From Paenibacillus sp. FSL K6-3182 (GTDB lineage Bacteria; Bacillota; Bacilli; Paenibacillales; Paenibacillaceae), in NCBI RefSeq assembly GCF_037976325.1, contig NZ_CP150265.1, positions 131,001 through 195,000 on the forward strand: a stretch of DNA of 64,000 nt. The letters are read 5' to 3'. Every line of letters starts with the position of its first letter. Position 1 is the stretch's first letter. Made by a program: the position numbers and the translations under genes. The notes below the pieces were generated by a model. It had not been told where the DNA came from. It searched no databases and saw nothing but the letters and a program-made list of their open reading frames with translations. This document shows positions 3,313 through 10,399 of this stretch, piece by piece.

Positions 3313-3347
3313 CAAAAAAAATCCGGAGAATGATCTCCGGATTTTTT
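3313..3347. terminator. Bidirectional terminator between ohr and the racemase gene
   Basis: A perfect 9-base stem ATCCGGAGA/TCTCCGGAT (3321-3329 with 3334-3342) has a T run on its right for the plus strand and an A run on its left, which acts as a T run for the minus strand. It therefore ends both ohr and the minus-strand cluster that finishes at 3357. Confidence 0.85.
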
Positions 3348-3356
3348 GTAATGCTC

Positions 3357-4070
3357 TTATTTCGCGATGGTTTGTTTGCCCGACAGCTCAATAGATCTTT
3401 GTACAAGCACCGTCATTGCATCTACACAAAAGGCTGCGACGTCTTTTTGGATCGGTATGCAGGATAATTCCGTGCATGCGATGATCACACACTGGCACTC
3501 ATCCTGCACGAGCAAGTGGTTAATGATGCCTTCAAACTCAGAAGGCTCAACAGGCAAATTACGTTTGACCTTGTTGTAGATAATGTCCATCACATGCTCC
3601 TGAATGGCTTCTTCAGGCTCGTGAAGGTGCATATTATACTGATTGCAGCCATGACGATACACGCCGCTGCTAACCGTTCCATTTGTAGCTAGAATACCAA
3701 TCTTGCAGTGTTCTCCAAAGGTGTCATGGATCTTTTTCAGCGTCTCATCCACCATGTTGATTATATTTATGCTTGTCATTTGCTGCATATCATTATAGAA
3801 ATAATGCGACGTATTGCAAGGAATCGCAATATTAGATACGCCTGCTGCCTCAAGGATTTTGAAATCTTTAGCAACCGCTTTGAGAAACAACTCGCCTTTG
3901 TTTTCTAATATGACACCTGTTCGATCTGGCAAAGTGGCATGATTGAGAATGACGATATCAATATGCTCTTGATCACGGTCTGCTGCCGTTTGCTCGATAA
4001 TCATATCGAAAAATACGGATGTTGCTTTTGGGCCCATCCCGCCTATGATGCCTAAGCTTTTAGCTTCCAT
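3357..4070 (-). CDS. Aspartate/glutamate racemase family protein (RacX/RacD-like)
   Basis: A 237-residue protein with the two-cysteine signature of cofactor-independent amino acid racemases: Cys85 in IPCNTSH and Cys199 in ACTELS, with the family opening GIIGGMGP. These enzymes interconvert L- and D-aspartate (or glutamate) by two-base catalysis in the cytoplasm. It is the last gene of a five-gene minus-strand run (9867 to 3357), 46 bases after the papain-fold protein gene. In enterococci and lactococci an aspartate racemase sits beside a D-aspartate ligase and supplies D-Asp for the peptidoglycan cross-bridge. The same pairing occurs here, which suggests D-Asp as the product. Substrate is inference. 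Confidence 0.85.
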   Translation of the reverse strand: MEAKSLGIIGGMGPKATSVFFDMIIEQTAADRDQEHIDIVILNHATLPDRTGVILENKGELFLKAVAKDFKILEAAGVSNIAIPCNTSHYFYNDMQQMTSINIINMVDETLKKIHDTFGEHCKIGILATNGTVSSGVYRHGCNQYNMHLHEPEEAIQEHVMDIIYNKVKRNLPVEPSEFEGIINHLLVQDECQCVIIACTELSCIPIQKDVAAFCVDAMTVLVQRSIELSGKQTIAK

Positions 4071-4115
4071 TGCCTCAACCTACTTTTAATGAAGTGTTTA
4101 ATTGAAATGATTTAG

Positions 4116-5180
4116 TTATTCAACGATCATAGCATGGCTTCCCATTGCGTCATAGCTGTTAAAAAAAGTGTCTGCATCGTAAGTAACTTGTCCTTTTAAC
4201 GGATTCATTACATGTACTTTACCATCTTCATATCCATTTAGGACAACAACGTGCAAATTAATAGGAGCTGAATAATATTCACCAGTATCACTGAAATACC
4301 AAGCGTAATTCATTTTTGGCGGCGTGAGATCAAGCGTAATCCAAGTTACGACAGGAATCCCTTTATTAAGCTGCTCGATGATTTCCTCTCGCGTGCTGCC
4401 GCTAATATCTGAAGTACTGTTGCTGCGCCCTGCGACATCAAAATACAAGTTAGCCGCCTCCACGATAGGAGGTGCAAAGCTGAAAAATCCGCCTTTTAAC
4501 GACCTAGGTTCGCCAGCGTATGATTTATAGGGATCAGGCCCATACAATTTATTGTTTTTGGTGATAAAAGCTTGCTTCGGCAAATAATTATCCGACATTT
4601 CTGTTTTGGTAACGTCATATCCGTAATAATTGAGTACCGCGGTTAATGAAGTAATTTCACAGCCGTTAGGCAGCTCAGGCTTCTGCATAATGGTATCGAC
4701 ATCGATATAAACCTTCTTAATGTTAACGGAGCCATCAGCTGCCCGCTCATAATCCTTCACATATTCAAACGTTTTGTTGGTGGTTGTCAGCTCTTGTGCA
4801 GGGCCGTTAACCGCTATTTGATGCTCTTCCTCCGACAGCTGATAAGGCCTGCCGACCTTCTGTTGTTTTATCTTATAGCTGGTACCGTAATCGAGCAGAA
4901 TAGATGTTGCTTTACCCATTTCGTCTGTTGTCATGGTGCCGATAACCGATCCGCTATTAGCAGCGGTTATTGTAAATACAGCATCTTTAATTGGCTGCTG
5001 CGTTGCTTCGTCTTTGCTTATTATTGTAATTGTTCCTTGCTCTATTTCTGGAGTAGGGGCAGTCGTTGGTGTAGAATCGACTTTCTCATTGAATACAGGT
5101 TTTGCATCTTCTTTCGTAAACAATGTATAAATAAAAAATATAATACCCAATAACACCAGGAGCTTGATCATTCTTTTCAT
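4116..5180 (-). CDS. Membrane-anchored protein with SpaA/Cna-B-like domain and C39-type papain-fold peptidase domain
   Basis: A 354-residue protein with a single N-terminal membrane segment (about residues 5-20, short cytoplasmic MKRM), a Thr/Pro-rich spacer, a prealbumin-like domain (about 48-125, beginning GTITIISKDEAT), and a C-terminal peptidase_C39_2-like domain. Putative catalytic residues are Cys in ELPNGCEIT, His in NLHVVVLNGY and Asn in VMNPLKG. The arrangement places it outside the membrane. AAAGGAG lies 8 bases before the start. It sits between the AsnB-like and racemase genes (gaps 84 and 46 bases), so it may act on the product of the cluster, for example trimming a wall peptide. 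That role is a guess; the related B. subtilis protein YvpB is also of unknown function. Confidence 0.72.
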   Translation of the reverse strand: MKRMIKLLVLLGIIFFIYTLFTKEDAKPVFNEKVDSTPTTAPTPEIEQGTITIISKDEATQQPIKDAVFTITAANSGSVIGTMTTDEMGKATSILLDYGTSYKIKQQKVGRPYQLSEEEHQIAVNGPAQELTTTNKTFEYVKDYERAADGSVNIKKVYIDVDTIMQKPELPNGCEITSLTAVLNYYGYDVTKTEMSDNYLPKQAFITKNNKLYGPDPYKSYAGEPRSLKGGFFSFAPPIVEAANLYFDVAGRSNSTSDISGSTREEIIEQLNKGIPVVTWITLDLTPPKMNYAWYFSDTGEYYSAPINLHVVVLNGYEDGKVHVMNPLKGQVTYDADTFFNSYDAMGSHAMIVE

Positions 5181-5263
5181 GTTGGTGGCTCCTTTACTTT
5201 ATAGCCGTAATAGTTATGCGACAGTGTGTAACGAGCAGGCAGCCGGTGGCTGCCCTATGCCTG

Positions 5264-7111
5264 TTACGCTTGCTCGAAGAACGTCTTATGCCATATAAGG
5301 AACACATACACTGTCCAAATGTATCTAGCGTAGTTCTGCTTGCCTGAATAATGCGAATCCAGATATTTCATCAGCTCATCGGTATGAAAGAACAGCTTCG
5401 CTCGGTCCGAGAGAAACATGTCCTTAACGAGCTTATAATATTTCTCCTGTCTTAGCCAGTGCCTAATAGGTACAGGAAAACCAACCTTTGGTCGATTCGC
5501 CCATTCATCGGGAAGTACTTCCTTCGCAGCTGTACGCAGTGCATACTTCGTATTGCTTGGATGTACACGAAGATCAGTCGGCAGCTTGGAAGCCAGGTCC
5601 ATAACCATTTTGTCTAAAAATGGAACTCTCAGCTCAATAGAATGGGCGAGGCTCATTTTGTCTGCCTTAAGAAGAATATCTCCCGGAAGCCAAAGCTTCA
5701 GATCGAGATATTGCATTTTGGTTATATCATCTTTGCCCCGCACTTGATCATATACAGTCTTCGTAATGCTTTGTACGGATGGTCCTTGCTTATATTCGTC
5801 CTTCAATACGGCTAAGGCATCAGCTTCTTCAAACACATGCGCTTGACCGATAAAACGTTCCTCAACCCGCTGTCCGCCTTTTACGACAAAGGAGGTGATT
5901 CTGTTTTTGGACAGCTTGCCGCTTAATAATGATAACGGCCGCCTGATTGCAAACGGAAGCTTCTTGTATTTTTTCATCGCTGGTGTCGTATCGTACCAAT
6001 CATAACCGCCGAAAATTTCGTCTGCGCCTTCTCCAGAGAGCACCACGGTCACATGCTTGCTCGCAAGCTCTGCTAGGAAATAGAGGGGCACGGAGGAAGG
6101 GTTGGACTGCGGTTCATCCATATGGTACTGAATCGTTGGCAGCATCTTGAAGCACTCATCCGCTGAAACCAGTCGTTTATAGTTTTCGATGTTTAAAATT
6201 TCTGACAAATCCTCTGCGAGGTTCGTCTCATTAAAGTTGCCTTCATAATCCTCAAAGCCGACGGAAAATGTTTTGTTTGGTTTTAGCAATGCGGTAATAT
6301 AACTGGAATCAATGCCTCCGGACAAAAAAGACCCGACCGGCACATCGCTAATTTGGTGATAGGCGACTGTTTCTTTTACTGTGCTTTTAATTTGGTTGAC
6401 GTAATGGGACAGGCTGTTCGGTTCTTCTGCAAAGTTAACGTCCCAATAAGGCTTCACTTCCAGCTTGCCTTGTTTGTAAAGCATATAGTGACCAGGCTTC
6501 AGCTTGTACACGCCTTTAAAAAACGTTTCATCAAGCACGGAGTATTGAAAGGTCAGGTAAGGCTTGAGCGCATCCTTGTTCAGCTCTTTGCGGAAGGCAG
6601 GCTGCTTTAAGAAAGCTTTGATTTCAGAGCTGAATAAGAAGGAATTATCCGTTGTGTTTTGTGTATAATACAACGGCTTTATGCCAAAGAAATCCCTGGC
6701 GAGAAACATCGTTTCCGTATTCGTATCCCATATCGCAAAAGCAAACATGCCTCGTAACTTCTGAAGCAGCGAGGTTCCATACTCTTCATAAGCATGAATG
6801 ATAACCTCGCTGTCCGTATGGCTAACAAAGGTATGCCCGCACTGAATCAACTCTTCACGCAGCTCTTGATAATTGTAGATTTCTCCATTAAATACAAGAA
6901 CACAGCTTTTATCCTCGTTGTAAATCGGTTGGCTGGCTTCTTCAGACATATCTATAATTTTGAGGCGTCTAAACCCTAAAGTTACTTCCTCATCTGAATA
7001 GATACCGCCACTATCGGGACCTCTATGAACGATCATATCCATCATGTCTTTAATAATGGCTACTTGATCAACGTCGGGACGACTATCTGCAAAACCTACA
7101 AAACCGCACAT
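5264..7111 (-). CDS. asnB: AsnB-type glutamine-dependent amidotransferase (asparagine synthase family)
   Basis: A 615-residue protein with an N-terminal Ntn glutaminase domain (nucleophile Cys2 in MCGFVG; HRGPD, FNGEIYN) and a C-terminal synthetase domain with the PP-loop SGGIDSS and SGEGADE. It uses glutamine and ATP to amidate a carboxylate. Length and motifs match B. subtilis AsnB, whose known job is to amidate meso-diaminopimelate in peptidoglycan precursors, and AsnO. It lies 40 bases after the MurE-like gene and before the secreted peptidase gene. In this setting the substrate could be a wall peptide or a D-Asp side chain (giving D-Asn) rather than free aspartate. The family call is firm; the substrate is inference. 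Confidence 0.9.
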   Translation of the reverse strand: MCGFVGFADSRPDVDQVAIIKDMMDMIVHRGPDSGGIYSDEEVTLGFRRLKIIDMSEEASQPIYNEDKSCVLVFNGEIYNYQELREELIQCGHTFVSHTDSEVIIHAYEEYGTSLLQKLRGMFAFAIWDTNTETMFLARDFFGIKPLYYTQNTTDNSFLFSSEIKAFLKQPAFRKELNKDALKPYLTFQYSVLDETFFKGVYKLKPGHYMLYKQGKLEVKPYWDVNFAEEPNSLSHYVNQIKSTVKETVAYHQISDVPVGSFLSGGIDSSYITALLKPNKTFSVGFEDYEGNFNETNLAEDLSEILNIENYKRLVSADECFKMLPTIQYHMDEPQSNPSSVPLYFLAELASKHVTVVLSGEGADEIFGGYDWYDTTPAMKKYKKLPFAIRRPLSLLSGKLSKNRITSFVVKGGQRVEERFIGQAHVFEEADALAVLKDEYKQGPSVQSITKTVYDQVRGKDDITKMQYLDLKLWLPGDILLKADKMSLAHSIELRVPFLDKMVMDLASKLPTDLRVHPSNTKYALRTAAKEVLPDEWANRPKVGFPVPIRHWLRQEKYYKLVKDMFLSDRAKLFFHTDELMKYLDSHYSGKQNYARYIWTVYVFLIWHKTFFEQA

Positions 7112-7150
7112 GTGGAATACCTTTCATTAACTTTATTGTTTTAAGCGCAG

Positions 7151-8620
7151 TCACATCGTTTTTAATTTGATTTCCCTGACGATTTCCGATTCATTAAATG
7201 GGATTTCCGTTTTCCCAATAATTTGCGACGTTTCATGACCTTTGCCGGCAATGAGAATGACATCGTCTTTTCTGCTGATATCAATGGCAAAAGCAATAGC
7301 GTCTCTCCTGTCGATAACGGCCTCATAAGCTCCGTTATAAGCTTCGACTCCTTCAATAATTTCCCTAATAATCAGGTTATTATCCTGCTCCTTGGGATTA
7401 TCAGAGGTGATTACGGAAAAATCAGCAAATGTAGCGGCTACCTTAGCCATCGCTCTACGTTTCTCTGTGCCTGATTCCCCATCAGATGCGTAAACGCCGA
7501 ACACGAGAATGATTTTGCCTTTGGTAAAAGGCCGGATTGTTTTTAATGCCTTCTCTAGGCTGTCCTCGGTATGAGCAAAATCGACGATGATCTTCGTATC
7601 CTCATCTTGATAGACAACTTCCAGCCGGCCTTTAATGCCCTCAACAGCCAAAATGCCGTCTGCGATTTGCTGTAGCGTAAATTGATTGCAATAAGCCGTT
7701 GCAATAGCGGCTAGACTATTATATACGTAGATCGTCCCAGGCAGGTTTACTTTAATTGCGATGCTGCCCTTTGGCGTATTTACATTATAAGTCGTATAGT
7801 CGGCATAATAAGTAATATCCGTCGCGTAAATGTCAGCTTCCTGCTCAATGCCATAAGTAACCAGCTTTGGGCCTTTATGCTGCAATCGGTCAATGAGGAT
7901 ACGGCCAAATTTATCATCTGCATTAATAATGTTAAAGTCCGTCGTCATGTCGAACAGCAAAGCCTTCGCTTCGAAATATTCCTCCATCGTATGGTGAAGC
8001 TCCAAATGATCCGGCGTTAGATTTGTGAAAATGCCAGTTTTGAAGCTGGAATGAGCAACGCGTTTCAAATTGAGCGCATGCGAAGAAACCTCCATGACGC
8101 AATGCTTCATATGTGATTCAATCATATCGGCGAAGATTCGTTGCAAATACAGCGATTCCGGCGTCGTATTTTTGTTTTGAATCAGCTTGTCGCCGATAAC
8201 TGTGCCGATCGTGCCGATAATTCCGAGGGCTGTCCCCGTTTGCTCGAATATAGATTTTAGAAAATATGTGGTCGATGTCTTCCCGTTTGTTCCAGTGATG
8301 CCGAGAAGATTCATTTGCTCAGTCGGGCGATGATAGAAGTTTGCAGATACCAGGGCGAGCGCCTCACGCGTGTCGTTAACTTGCAGTACCGTTATTCCTG
8401 CTGGCACATGAACATCCTTCTCCACAATAACGACGGTCGCACCAAGTGCGATTGCTTTTTCGATGAAATGGTGTCCATCAACCGAAAAGCCCGTTATAGC
8501 GACAAATACGCCATTGGCTGAAGCTTCCCTCGAATCAAAGGCAATGGAGCTTACTTCAATATGCAAATCGCCTTTCACGAGCGTGTAATCCAGATCTTTC
8601 AGTAAGGAGGTCAATAACAT
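7151..8620 (-). CDS. MurE-like ligase (UDP-MurNAc-tripeptide synthetase family), divergent paralogue
   Basis: A 489-residue Mur ligase with an N-terminal UMAG-binding domain, P-loop GTNGKTS (110-116), the probable carbamoylated Lys219 (EAKALLF), VDFAHT (347-351) and C-terminal GKGHE (459-463). MurE adds the third residue to UDP-MurNAc-L-Ala-D-Glu. Meso-diaminopimelate enzymes carry DNPR; here residues 407-410 are DNPK, and the usual GCGGDRD stretch is replaced by GVYASDGES (375-383). This suggests a changed amino-acid specificity and a paralogue rather than the housekeeping murE, which is normally in the division/wall cluster. GGAG precedes the ATG by 8 bases. It is 42 bases downstream of the ATP-grasp gene and 40 upstream of the AsnB-like gene. 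Confidence 0.82.
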   Translation of the reverse strand: MLLTSLLKDLDYTLVKGDLHIEVSSIAFDSREASANGVFVAITGFSVDGHHFIEKAIALGATVVIVEKDVHVPAGITVLQVNDTREALALVSANFYHRPTEQMNLLGITGTNGKTSTTYFLKSIFEQTGTALGIIGTIGTVIGDKLIQNKNTTPESLYLQRIFADMIESHMKHCVMEVSSHALNLKRVAHSSFKTGIFTNLTPDHLELHHTMEEYFEAKALLFDMTTDFNIINADDKFGRILIDRLQHKGPKLVTYGIEQEADIYATDITYYADYTTYNVNTPKGSIAIKVNLPGTIYVYNSLAAIATAYCNQFTLQQIADGILAVEGIKGRLEVVYQDEDTKIIVDFAHTEDSLEKALKTIRPFTKGKIILVFGVYASDGESGTEKRRAMAKVAATFADFSVITSDNPKEQDNNLIIREIIEGVEAYNGAYEAVIDRRDAIAFAIDISRKDDVILIAGKGHETSQIIGKTEIPFNESEIVREIKLKTM

Positions 8621-8661
8621 ACGATCAGCTCCATTCTATTACCTATTACTATTTTCGCAGG

Positions 8662-9867
8662 CTATCTTCTTAGAAGCTTTTTCGTAAGCTTGCCACCGAT
8701 GATAGCCGCATAGGAAAAGGCTGGTTTCGGGTCCTTCCAATCCCAGATCGCATAAGCTTTCGGTTTAAACAAGGATACGAATACTTGCTTCCAAGTCAAT
8801 TGACCCGTCTTGATGTAATCGCGAACAGCAAGCATGTCCTCATATCCGTACCAGAAAACACGGTTCGTATTCTCTTTGACGGCTTTGGGAGGCACAAGGT
8901 TGCCGCCAGTTAACTCTTGGTAAGTAATCCATGGAATATTTACCCCAACTCGGTACAGCAGGTTGTTCAGGTTGGTAATCCGGCAATTGACTTCGATTAA
9001 ATAAAAACGGCCAGTTTCGGCGTCTTTTTTGAATTCAATCTCCGCGAAGCCTTTCCATTTCATCTTCTCTAGAAAAGGAGCTCCGATATCGAACAGCTCT
9101 TGTACGTATCTCTGTCCTGTATACACGGATGCGCCGAAGTTAATCGGATATTGGCGGAATTTTTGACAAGTGACCCAGTGAGTGACCTTTGAATCTTGGT
9201 TTAAATACGCGTCGAACGTATACATATGATCGTCGAAACCTGGGATGATACGCTGTACGATGACTTCCAAGCTCGCTTCCTTCGCTTTGGCCAGCGCTTG
9301 TTCGAGCTCAGCGCGGCTATGTACCTTAAAGAGCTTGCGTCTAAACTTGGCAACGAAGGATGGAGAATCTGTTGGTTTGACGATACAAGGATATTTAATG
9401 ATTTCGTCGATCTTCTCAAAAAAACGATCTTCGTCTACACGGACCGTTTCGGGAACAGCTACGCCATTTTCTAGAGAAAGGCGCTGCAGCACTTCTTTAT
9501 TCATCATATCCGAGTATATGCCCGGAATGTCTTGTGGTATGAGATAGTGTTCTCTAAGCTCTTCCAAATGCTCATCGATAACCTCAAGATAAGAATCGTG
9601 GCATGGAATAAGGACAGGAGGAGCGCTTTGCTTGCGGGCATATTCCTTCAAGAAACGAATGAACGCTGCCGTGTCTTCTTTATAATGAGGAGAGATTAGT
9701 CTCTCAGACGTATATTTTGAATCGGCGCCATAGGTATCTTTAGTCGAATAATCTACGGCAACCGTATGTACACCGTTAATGCCTAGGCAACGAATGGTGC
9801 TTAAACCTATATAATAATTACAACCCAAAATTACTGCTTTATTATTCACAAAGGCACATCCCGACAT
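8662..9867 (-). CDS. ATP-grasp carboligase, D-aspartate ligase-like
   Basis: A 401-residue protein. The N-terminal part (about 1-110) resembles the carboligase group that includes enterococcal D-aspartate ligase (VLIPCHDSY, EELREHYLIP), followed by an ATP-grasp core with KYPCIVKPTDS, EVIVQRIIPG and the metal-binding FYLIEVNCRITNLNNL near residues 285-300. D-aspartate ligase activates D-Asp with ATP and joins it to the side-chain amine of the third residue of the wall peptide. It is the first gene of the cluster, with an aspartate racemase at the other end. The ATG at 9867 has no proper ribosome site; a GTG at 9849 with GGGA upstream is an alternative that fits the family N-terminus better. 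Substrate is inferred. Confidence 0.8.
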   Translation of the reverse strand: MSGCAFVNNKAVILGCNYYIGLSTIRCLGINGVHTVAVDYSTKDTYGADSKYTSERLISPHYKEDTAAFIRFLKEYARKQSAPPVLIPCHDSYLEVIDEHLEELREHYLIPQDIPGIYSDMMNKEVLQRLSLENGVAVPETVRVDEDRFFEKIDEIIKYPCIVKPTDSPSFVAKFRRKLFKVHSRAELEQALAKAKEASLEVIVQRIIPGFDDHMYTFDAYLNQDSKVTHWVTCQKFRQYPINFGASVYTGQRYVQELFDIGAPFLEKMKWKGFAEIEFKKDAETGRFYLIEVNCRITNLNNLLYRVGVNIPWITYQELTGGNLVPPKAVKENTNRVFWYGYEDMLAVRDYIKTGQLTWKQVFVSLFKPKAYAIWDWKDPKPAFSYAAIIGGKLTKKLLRR

Positions 9868-10399
9868 CCTAATTTATGTTCATTTCCCTGTATTACGACT
9901 AATGTTTTAAATAATTTTACTTCATACTTTCTTATAATACAAATGGATTTATCCTCATAATAGCTACAAAGATGTGGAGGATTTGGACCAAATCCGAGGC
10001 GCATGCTGCCGCTTAAAACAGCTTCTTTAACAGCCGTTTTTTCTGGCATTCGACACCATTACCCGTAAATCGCTGAAACCATTTATCGGATTTTTTAACA
10101 TTAAAGCACTTGATGAGCGTTATTAGCATATTTGTGATTTTATTAACATTTTTCAATTATTCATATATATGTATATTTTACTATTCTATATTTAACGCAA
10201 GTAACTTTTTCCATATATTGATCGATTTTACTAGTTAAAAAGAACTAGAAATTGGATAAAATAACTTCATTTTGTCGAATAATGCCCGAAAATTGTCTAC
10301 GTTCGTCGACAAGTTTTTACAAACTCCTTATTGCTCTACGAGTATAATAGAAGCATTACCACACGAGTGCTAGATAAGGAGCGTGCCCCGAAGCGAGCT
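9868..10399. other. AT-rich intergenic region with several Spo0A-box-like sites
   Basis: No convincing gene lies between the ATP-grasp gene and the Spo0E-like gene, which point away from each other. A 67-codon minus-strand frame (9846-10049) is open but lacks a ribosome site. The region is very AT-rich at 10100-10260 and carries three Spo0A-box cores (see separate entry) and a TATAAT at 10343-10348 that could serve the Spo0E-like gene. Confidence 0.6.
10049..10311. promoter_or_regulatory. Three Spo0A-box-like sites
   Basis: The core TGTCGAA of the Spo0A binding site occurs at 10273-10279 on the plus strand and at 10049-10055 on the minus strand. TGTCGAC, one base off, is at 10305-10311 on the minus strand. 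They lie between a Spo0E-like phosphatase gene and the start of the D-Asp-ligase-like cluster, so Spo0A could control either or both. Binding is inferred from sequence alone. Confidence 0.45.

Follow-up and report, generated by a model that had tools for sequence, protein, structure and literature searches.

A candidate accessory route to a D-aspartate-bearing peptidoglycan precursor, with a second MurE, in Paenibacillus sp. FSL K6-3182

The third residue of the peptidoglycan peptide and the bridge are taxonomic hallmarks, thought to be fixed within a genus. Lysinibacillus sphaericus has a Lys-D-Asp vegetative wall and a diaminopimelate (DAP) cortex. In Lactococcus, Enterococcus faecium and Lactobacillus, the D-Asp cross-bridge is made by AslA/Aslfm, RacD and AsnH according to PMC4155827, which also places asnB1 next to murE in Lactobacillus plantarum, where it amidates the meso-DAP of the main wall. 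For the genus Lysinibacillus, PMC6971209 gives a Lys-Asp wall. Here, we analyzed a five-gene operon of the soil bacterium Paenibacillus sp. FSL K6-3182, located at positions 3357-9867 of a 64-kb window (the whole stretch of DNA analyzed, contig NZ_CP150265.1, positions 131,001 to 195,000); the genome is a single contig of 7.56 Mb. No description of this gene set was found in our literature search.

We consider it probable that these genes encode an accessory route to a variant UDP-N-acetylmuramyl (UDP-MurNAc) peptide, carrying D-Asp amidated to D-Asn on its third residue, in an organism whose division and cell wall (dcw) cluster encodes a DAP-type MurE. The features of the locus, in the direction of transcription, are the following:

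9902-9961, minus strand: 60-base upstream element (comparison of the 10 closest Paenibacillus-type loci)
8662-9867, minus strand: ATP-grasp carboxylate-amine ligase, 401 amino acids (sequence, profile searches, tree, structure model)
7151-8620, minus strand: second MurE (MurE2, class A), with Mur domains, nucleotide/ATP residues retained and third-residue pocket altered
5264-7111, minus strand: AsnB/AsnH-like glutamine amidotransferase (profile searches, tree)
4116-5180, minus strand: C39-like papain-fold protein with a SpaA/prealbumin domain (Pfam, alignment)
3357-4070, minus strand: two-Cys, pyridoxal phosphate-independent aspartate-type racemase of the Asp/Glu racemase type (profiles, alignment, tree)
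3316-3347, minus strand: terminator-like hairpin after the racemase gene, 14 pairs plus T tail (terminator scan)

The initial annotation of five genes on one strand, with short gaps and a terminator at the end, was confirmed: the genes are co-directional and the gaps, from ATP-grasp to racemase, are 41, 39, 83 and 45 bases. The terminator scan overall gave 7 sites against a shuffle mean of 7.8, hence no excess over shuffles. Translation of the ATP-grasp may start at GTG 9849, because homologues start there.

Named bacterial and archaeal genomes were scanned for relatives of the ATP-grasp, and the best 80 of 201 were taken as loci, so that the counts cover close kin only. These loci belong to Paenibacillus, Cohnella, Bacillus-type genera, Halobacillus, Virgibacillus, Oceanobacillus, Ornithinibacillus and Clostridia; the closest relatives of the cluster are mainly Paenibacillus. 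A Mur ligase adjoins the ATP-grasp in 78/80 loci: in 77 it follows on the same strand within 500 bases, and in 1 it is divergent. An Asp-type racemase is present in 74/80, and this bears out the expectation that the genes would co-occur in other genomes. An AsnB (>60% identity) was found in 31/80 loci, a C39 protein in 28/80 (27 match in the C39 domain and L063 covers the N-terminal part only), and the complete five-gene same-strand order of the window in 24/80. The grouping of the genes is not due to chance. However, the dedicated five-gene unit proposed at first has to be narrowed: the conserved core consists of three genes (ATP-grasp, Mur ligase and racemase), with AsnB and C39 optional. 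On a quick ATP-grasp tree these two co-vary, C39 having followed AsnB in 5.7 of 8 independent pairs on average and never the reverse (sign test, p 0.03-0.06).

In addition, 42/80 loci have a gene for a small protein (no more than 300 bases downstream of the racemase gene in 41/42), of which one example is:

L088, 13667-13963: small RELRLS protein, about 60-110 amino acids, with an invariant RELRLS core

A coiled-coil-like tail is seen in most aligned copies. No Pfam family scored above cut-off in the 5 copies tested, a structure model (predicted local distance difference test, pLDDT, 83.5) had no PDB match at E<=0.001, and the protein was not found in the genome of the window by a search that was run without a positive control. 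It is a possible sixth component of the pathway.

The evidence for a modified precursor comes foremost from MurE2. The genome's dcw cluster has a canonical DAP-type MurE. Mur class was assigned by identity to the MurE2 of the window (over 50%, class A; under 50%, class B), giving 36 class A loci (55-99% identical) and 42 class B loci (28-34%). The equivalents of E. coli S28, T157, T158, S184, R192 and K224, which we take to be UDP-MurNAc/ATP residues, are retained in 36/36 class A and 42/42 class B sequences; the roles of the MurE pocket residues other than R416 are likewise our assumption. With three Mur domains (PF08245, PF02875 and PF01225) and these residues, MurE2 has the makings of a MurE, but not the Arg at both 416 and 389 that would mark it as meso-DAP-specific. 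Arg416 is described as the residue required for meso-DAP selection in PMC4432595 and PMC3060825. It is present in the genome's own dcw MurE and in 13/13 other canonical MurE, which were picked by their GGDRD motif and not by R416 (their R389 is thus there by construction). At this position, Lys is found in 36/36 class A and Val in 42/42 class B sequences. The position of R389, in a loop that is 3 residues longer in class A, has Arg in 2/36 class A and in 42/42 class B sequences. Class B also has K, N or H in place of D413 and D in place of E468. By profile, MurE2 is below the L-lysine-adding model (NF010628, 336.8 vs cut-off 536 bits) and above the DAP-ligase model (NF001126, 531.7 vs cut-off 373).

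The Mur class switches at least 9 times on the quick ATP-grasp tree, therefore class A and class B replace each other in place. The third residue added by class B is most likely L-ornithine, for an L-Orn-D-Asp, A4beta-type wall. For class A, the candidates are ornithine, another diamino acid and a DAP form; its Lys-containing motif is unlike those of the Lys-type enzymes examined. Two further Mur genes were noted: a second MurD-like ligase lies outside the dcw cluster of the window's genome (L023, 6712-8043), and in Bacillus sp. FJAT-29790 a canonical-type second MurE adjoins AsnB (L142, 8265-11758), as in the asnB1-murE pair of L. plantarum.

As far as wall data reach, class B tracks ornithine and the ATP-grasp tracks D-Asp. 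A close ATP-grasp is present in 22/22 Halobacillus genomes (62-66% identity), and class B scored above the murE cut-off in 7/7 Halobacillus genomes examined. We take the Halobacillus wall to be L-Orn-D-Asp, and presume the same bridge residue for the A4beta walls of Halobacillus and Ornithinibacillus alike. All 3 Ornithinibacillus loci in the set of 80 carry class B, ATP-grasp and racemase, and the genus is given as A4beta in PMC4062624. Of 16 f13 genomes examined, 4 have class B but showed no close ATP-grasp, namely three of genus g19 (Chryseomicrobium included) and G168, whose proteins are 85-87% identical to Psychrobacillus proteins; the ATP-grasp status of these four is that of the class survey, which scored at most 4 candidates per genome. 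The lack of a close ATP-grasp is as expected for a D-Glu bridge. The Chryseomicrobium wall is presumably L-Orn-D-Glu. The same type is given for Tetzosporium in PMC5786688, and a title in a reference list names wall ornithine for Bacillus psychrotolerans (now Psychrobacillus) and B. psychrodurans. In one g19 genome, class B and a DDRN-type MurE were the only MurE-type enzymes at E<=1e-60, with no canonical MurE. Other carriers of the ATP-grasp, Paenibacillus included, are listed as DAP-walled, and the DAP-walled genera that carry class B together with the ATP-grasp are the accessory case.

The DDLN/DDRN MurE paralogue was considered as the ornithine-adding enzyme and is kept as a candidate. 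It occurs in 6/7 Halobacillus genomes and in Sediminibacillus, was not seen in H. locisalis G046, and is also present in f13 genomes without class B. In the genome of Halobacillus halophilus, several further MurE paralogues with unusual pocket motifs (DQPG, DDLN and DHPG) are scattered (L136, L137 and L138).

The ATP-grasp is predicted to couple D-Asp to the UDP-MurNAc-peptide at the side-chain amine of its third residue. The Pfam match is weak (PF07478, E 1.2e-7). A structure model (pLDDT 86) matches the folds of a carbamoyl-phosphate-synthase-like protein, PurK, biotin carboxylase and PylC, which indicates an ATP-grasp ligase fold and no particular substrate; one query for the Asl family returned no solved structure at E<=0.01. 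The ATP-grasp fold and an adjoining racemase, as in D-Asp ligases of the Aslfm/AslA type, were observed, but the protein does not fall in the E. faecium-type D-Asp ligase clade. A paralogous ATP-grasp of the same clade (51-52% identity) lies near nucleoside-metabolism genes at 825740-826927 of the genome (L021, 9211-10413), with no Mur ligase or racemase beside it.

The nearest PDB entry to the racemase (PF01177) is the aspartate racemase 1jfl, and both Cys as well as the R48/K164 positions, whose roles we assume from that archaeal enzyme, are retained. The genome's best PF01177 match (L165) is absent from our racemase tree. Cysteate racemase was tried as an identity and rejected: the window racemase falls just below the cut-off of the CuyB model NF052483 (185.2 vs 190), and the RacD-type racemase adjoining an Asl-clade ligase reaches 168 on it, so the model does not separate the two types widely. 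The relatives in L039, L088 and L097 (3/3 tested) do exceed the cut-off, and together with the position of the ATP-grasp outside the Asl clade this would suit a wall pathway in which the ligase uses another acid, whether D-Glu, D-cysteate or an L-amino acid. We regard this as very improbable, given the 168 of the RacD-type enzyme, the R48/K164 positions, and the finding of no close ATP-grasp in the 4 Chryseomicrobium/Psychrobacillus genomes, whose bridges are probably D-Glu.

The AsnB-like enzyme scores 540.2 on TIGR01536 (cut-off 267.1) and has the architecture of a glutamine-hydrolysing Asn synthase (PF00733 plus a glutamine amidotransferase domain) with an N-terminal Cys. It shares 50% identity with the AsnB from one Asl-racemase operon, vs 29% with the genome's other full AsnB, and in the tree it clusters with AsnB enzymes found beside D-Asp ligases (two of three rows with starred support, the third weakly). 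It is predicted to amidate D-Asp. The C39-like protein (PF13529, 92.5 bits, and PF17802) has in its N-terminal part a hydrophobic stretch that resembles a membrane anchor. In the alignment with 3erv, its Cys and His are retained and the third residue is Asn, these being the positions that we take to form the C39 triad. We predict that the enzyme works outside the cytoplasm on the modified wall peptide. Next to the core in P. nanensis and P. paeoniae lies a divergent operon that encodes AsnB, an Asl-clade ATP-grasp, FemAB and C39, and the same AsnB, ATP-grasp and C39 matches were obtained in P. sp. 1011MAR3C5.

These partners also bear on whether the product is a wall precursor at all. ATP-grasp and Mur-type ligation also come together in cyanophycin synthetase, and an AsnB relative takes part in the N-acetylglutaminylglutamine amide (NAGGN) pathway; many of the carriers among the 80 loci are halophiles, and weak matches were obtained to cyanophycin synthetase (116.4 bits, TIGR02068 cut-off 850) and N-acetylglutaminylglutamine amidotransferase (413.5, cut-off 570.1). 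These would be accounted for if the product were a free or polymeric peptide serving as osmolyte, storage or secreted polymer. Such a product is nonetheless improbable: the six UDP-MurNAc/ATP residues are retained in 78/78 Mur ligases, FemAB and an Asl-clade ligase adjoin the cluster in two relatives, and the C39 partner is predicted to be extracytoplasmic. Synthesis of the cyanophycin or NAGGN type itself was rejected, with matches far below the cut-offs and ATP-grasp and Mur encoded by separate genes, unlike the fused cyanophycin synthetase.

Several observations weigh against an alternative, D-Asp-bearing precursor. Class A keeps D413, N414 and E468 with a positive charge at position 416, therefore a DAP-like third residue stays among the candidates. 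In place of the DNPK of class A, the motif is DDPA, DDPG or DNPA in five MurE that look Lys-type, and are presumed to be so, and whose genomes encode Asl-clade ATP-grasps (the motif filter had dropped four of the Lactobacillales MurE, L174, L175, L177 and L178, whose motifs were read separately). As for the ligase, a 41-row tree places the 14 cluster ATP-grasps, that of the window and its paralogue in one 16-row clade (branch 100/100), separate from the 20-row set holding the Asl proteins such as E. faecium P0227, to which the window protein is 27% identical over 254 amino acids. A grouping with unrelated carboligases, named at the outset as contrary evidence, is thus partly what we found. The tree program issued long-branch warnings, and other ATP-grasp groups align over more of the length of the ligase. 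The link to Halobacillus depends on a wall type that we assume, and that genus holds other MurE paralogues able in principle to add ornithine. We know of no class A genus whose wall carries D-Asp. PMC11382707 gives A1gamma as the wall type of Paenibacillus. Finally, the distribution is patchy: the ATP-grasp was found at >=60% identity in 13/25 genomes of the same genus and at >=50% in 2/398 of the class (own genome included in both). Two matches (G009 and G051) have an internal stop, and among 73 plasmid records matched, 1 was at 60-80% identity and 72 were below 60%. The operon is an accessory trait.

The pocket observations, with G464 also retained, Lys at the R416 position in 36/36 (A or G in the Lys-type-looking MurE) and the NF001126 score, would also fit a DAP wall that is kept and only decorated, MurE2 adding meso-DAP or another DAP form bearing D-Asp or D-Asn (A4gamma-like or as a side branch). 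This is unlikely, though the least so of the alternatives. R389 is not conserved in class A and the loop is longer, the dcw cluster already supplies a canonical DAP MurE, and class A has been exchanged at least 9 times with the ornithine-associated class B on the quick tree. For the initial annotation's proposal of an alternative wall peptide where the normal wall is of the DAP type, the inferential support is good: it comes from a dcw DAP-type MurE in the same genome as a second MurE with an altered pocket, the racemase residues, the AsnB grouping, the FemAB and Asl homologue in two relatives and the occurrence in 22/22 Halobacillus genomes.

Gene content, conserved order, pocket residues, co-occurrence and tree groupings are direct observations, from which we infer every substrate and product of the following scheme. 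The racemase would convert L-Asp to D-Asp. MurE2 would place on UDP-MurNAc-L-Ala-D-Glu a third residue that takes the place of meso-DAP, which the dcw MurE supplies, or differs from it in form, and the ATP-grasp ligase would attach D-Asp to the side-chain amine of this residue. The AsnB-like enzyme would then amidate the attached D-Asp to D-Asn, and the membrane-anchored C39 protein would work outside the cell on the modified peptide.

More tentatively, and with some doubt on our part, DAP-walled spore formers and Clostridia might carry a portable, switchable second wall chemistry (D-Asp/D-Asn on a third residue that is Orn, another diamino acid or a DAP form), using a new D-Asp ligase clade with two interchangeable MurE classes, perhaps at a certain developmental stage or as a defence against wall hydrolases, and class B might be the missing L-ornithine-adding MurE of A4beta walls. 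If an accessory second chemistry with exchanged Mur classes is true, a wall chemotype could be acquired in the way of other accessory traits, and perhaps be switched, and a cell could alter the covalent chemistry of its own wall. Our literature search found no enzyme assignment for the addition of L-ornithine or D-Asp in A4beta walls, for which candidates are named here.

Upstream of the operon, 9902-9961 is near-invariant across the 10 loci compared, and the DNA preceding it varies. It contains a sigma-A-like TTGTAT-17-TAAAAT (9914-9942; 8/12 matches, read by eye), which the promoter scan did not list. A pattern search with the 27-base core of the element (<=3 mismatches) gave a single site in the genome, therefore no regulon was seen. 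Comparison of the element by eye with the consensus sequences of sporulation sigma factors gave no convincing site. Elsewhere in the window, 181-1295 encodes a highly repetitive segment and, after it, a short C-terminal domain, presumably a collagen-like (BclA-type) surface protein.

Of the known systems, the AslA/Aslfm pathway shares enzyme types with the window, namely an Asp racemase, an ATP-grasp ligase and an AsnB-like amidase, and the AsnB enzymes of both cluster together. In the window, however, the ligase is from a different clade and the unit includes a second MurE of its own; the carriers are DAP-walled spore formers with a canonical MurE besides, and there is a predicted extracytoplasmic C39 partner. 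The A4beta genera Halobacillus and Ornithinibacillus share the ATP-grasp family, with a MurE-type ligase and a racemase in the same order, but they use a class B MurE, the Halobacillus racemase is on a different branch, and their clusters are without a close AsnB or C39. The asnB1-murE pair of L. plantarum resembles the window in having an AsnB-type amidase beside MurE, and differs in having neither racemase nor ATP-grasp. As in L. sphaericus, one organism would encode two wall peptide types, but there the D-Asp type is the main wall, whereas here the DAP type would be the default and the second type accessory.

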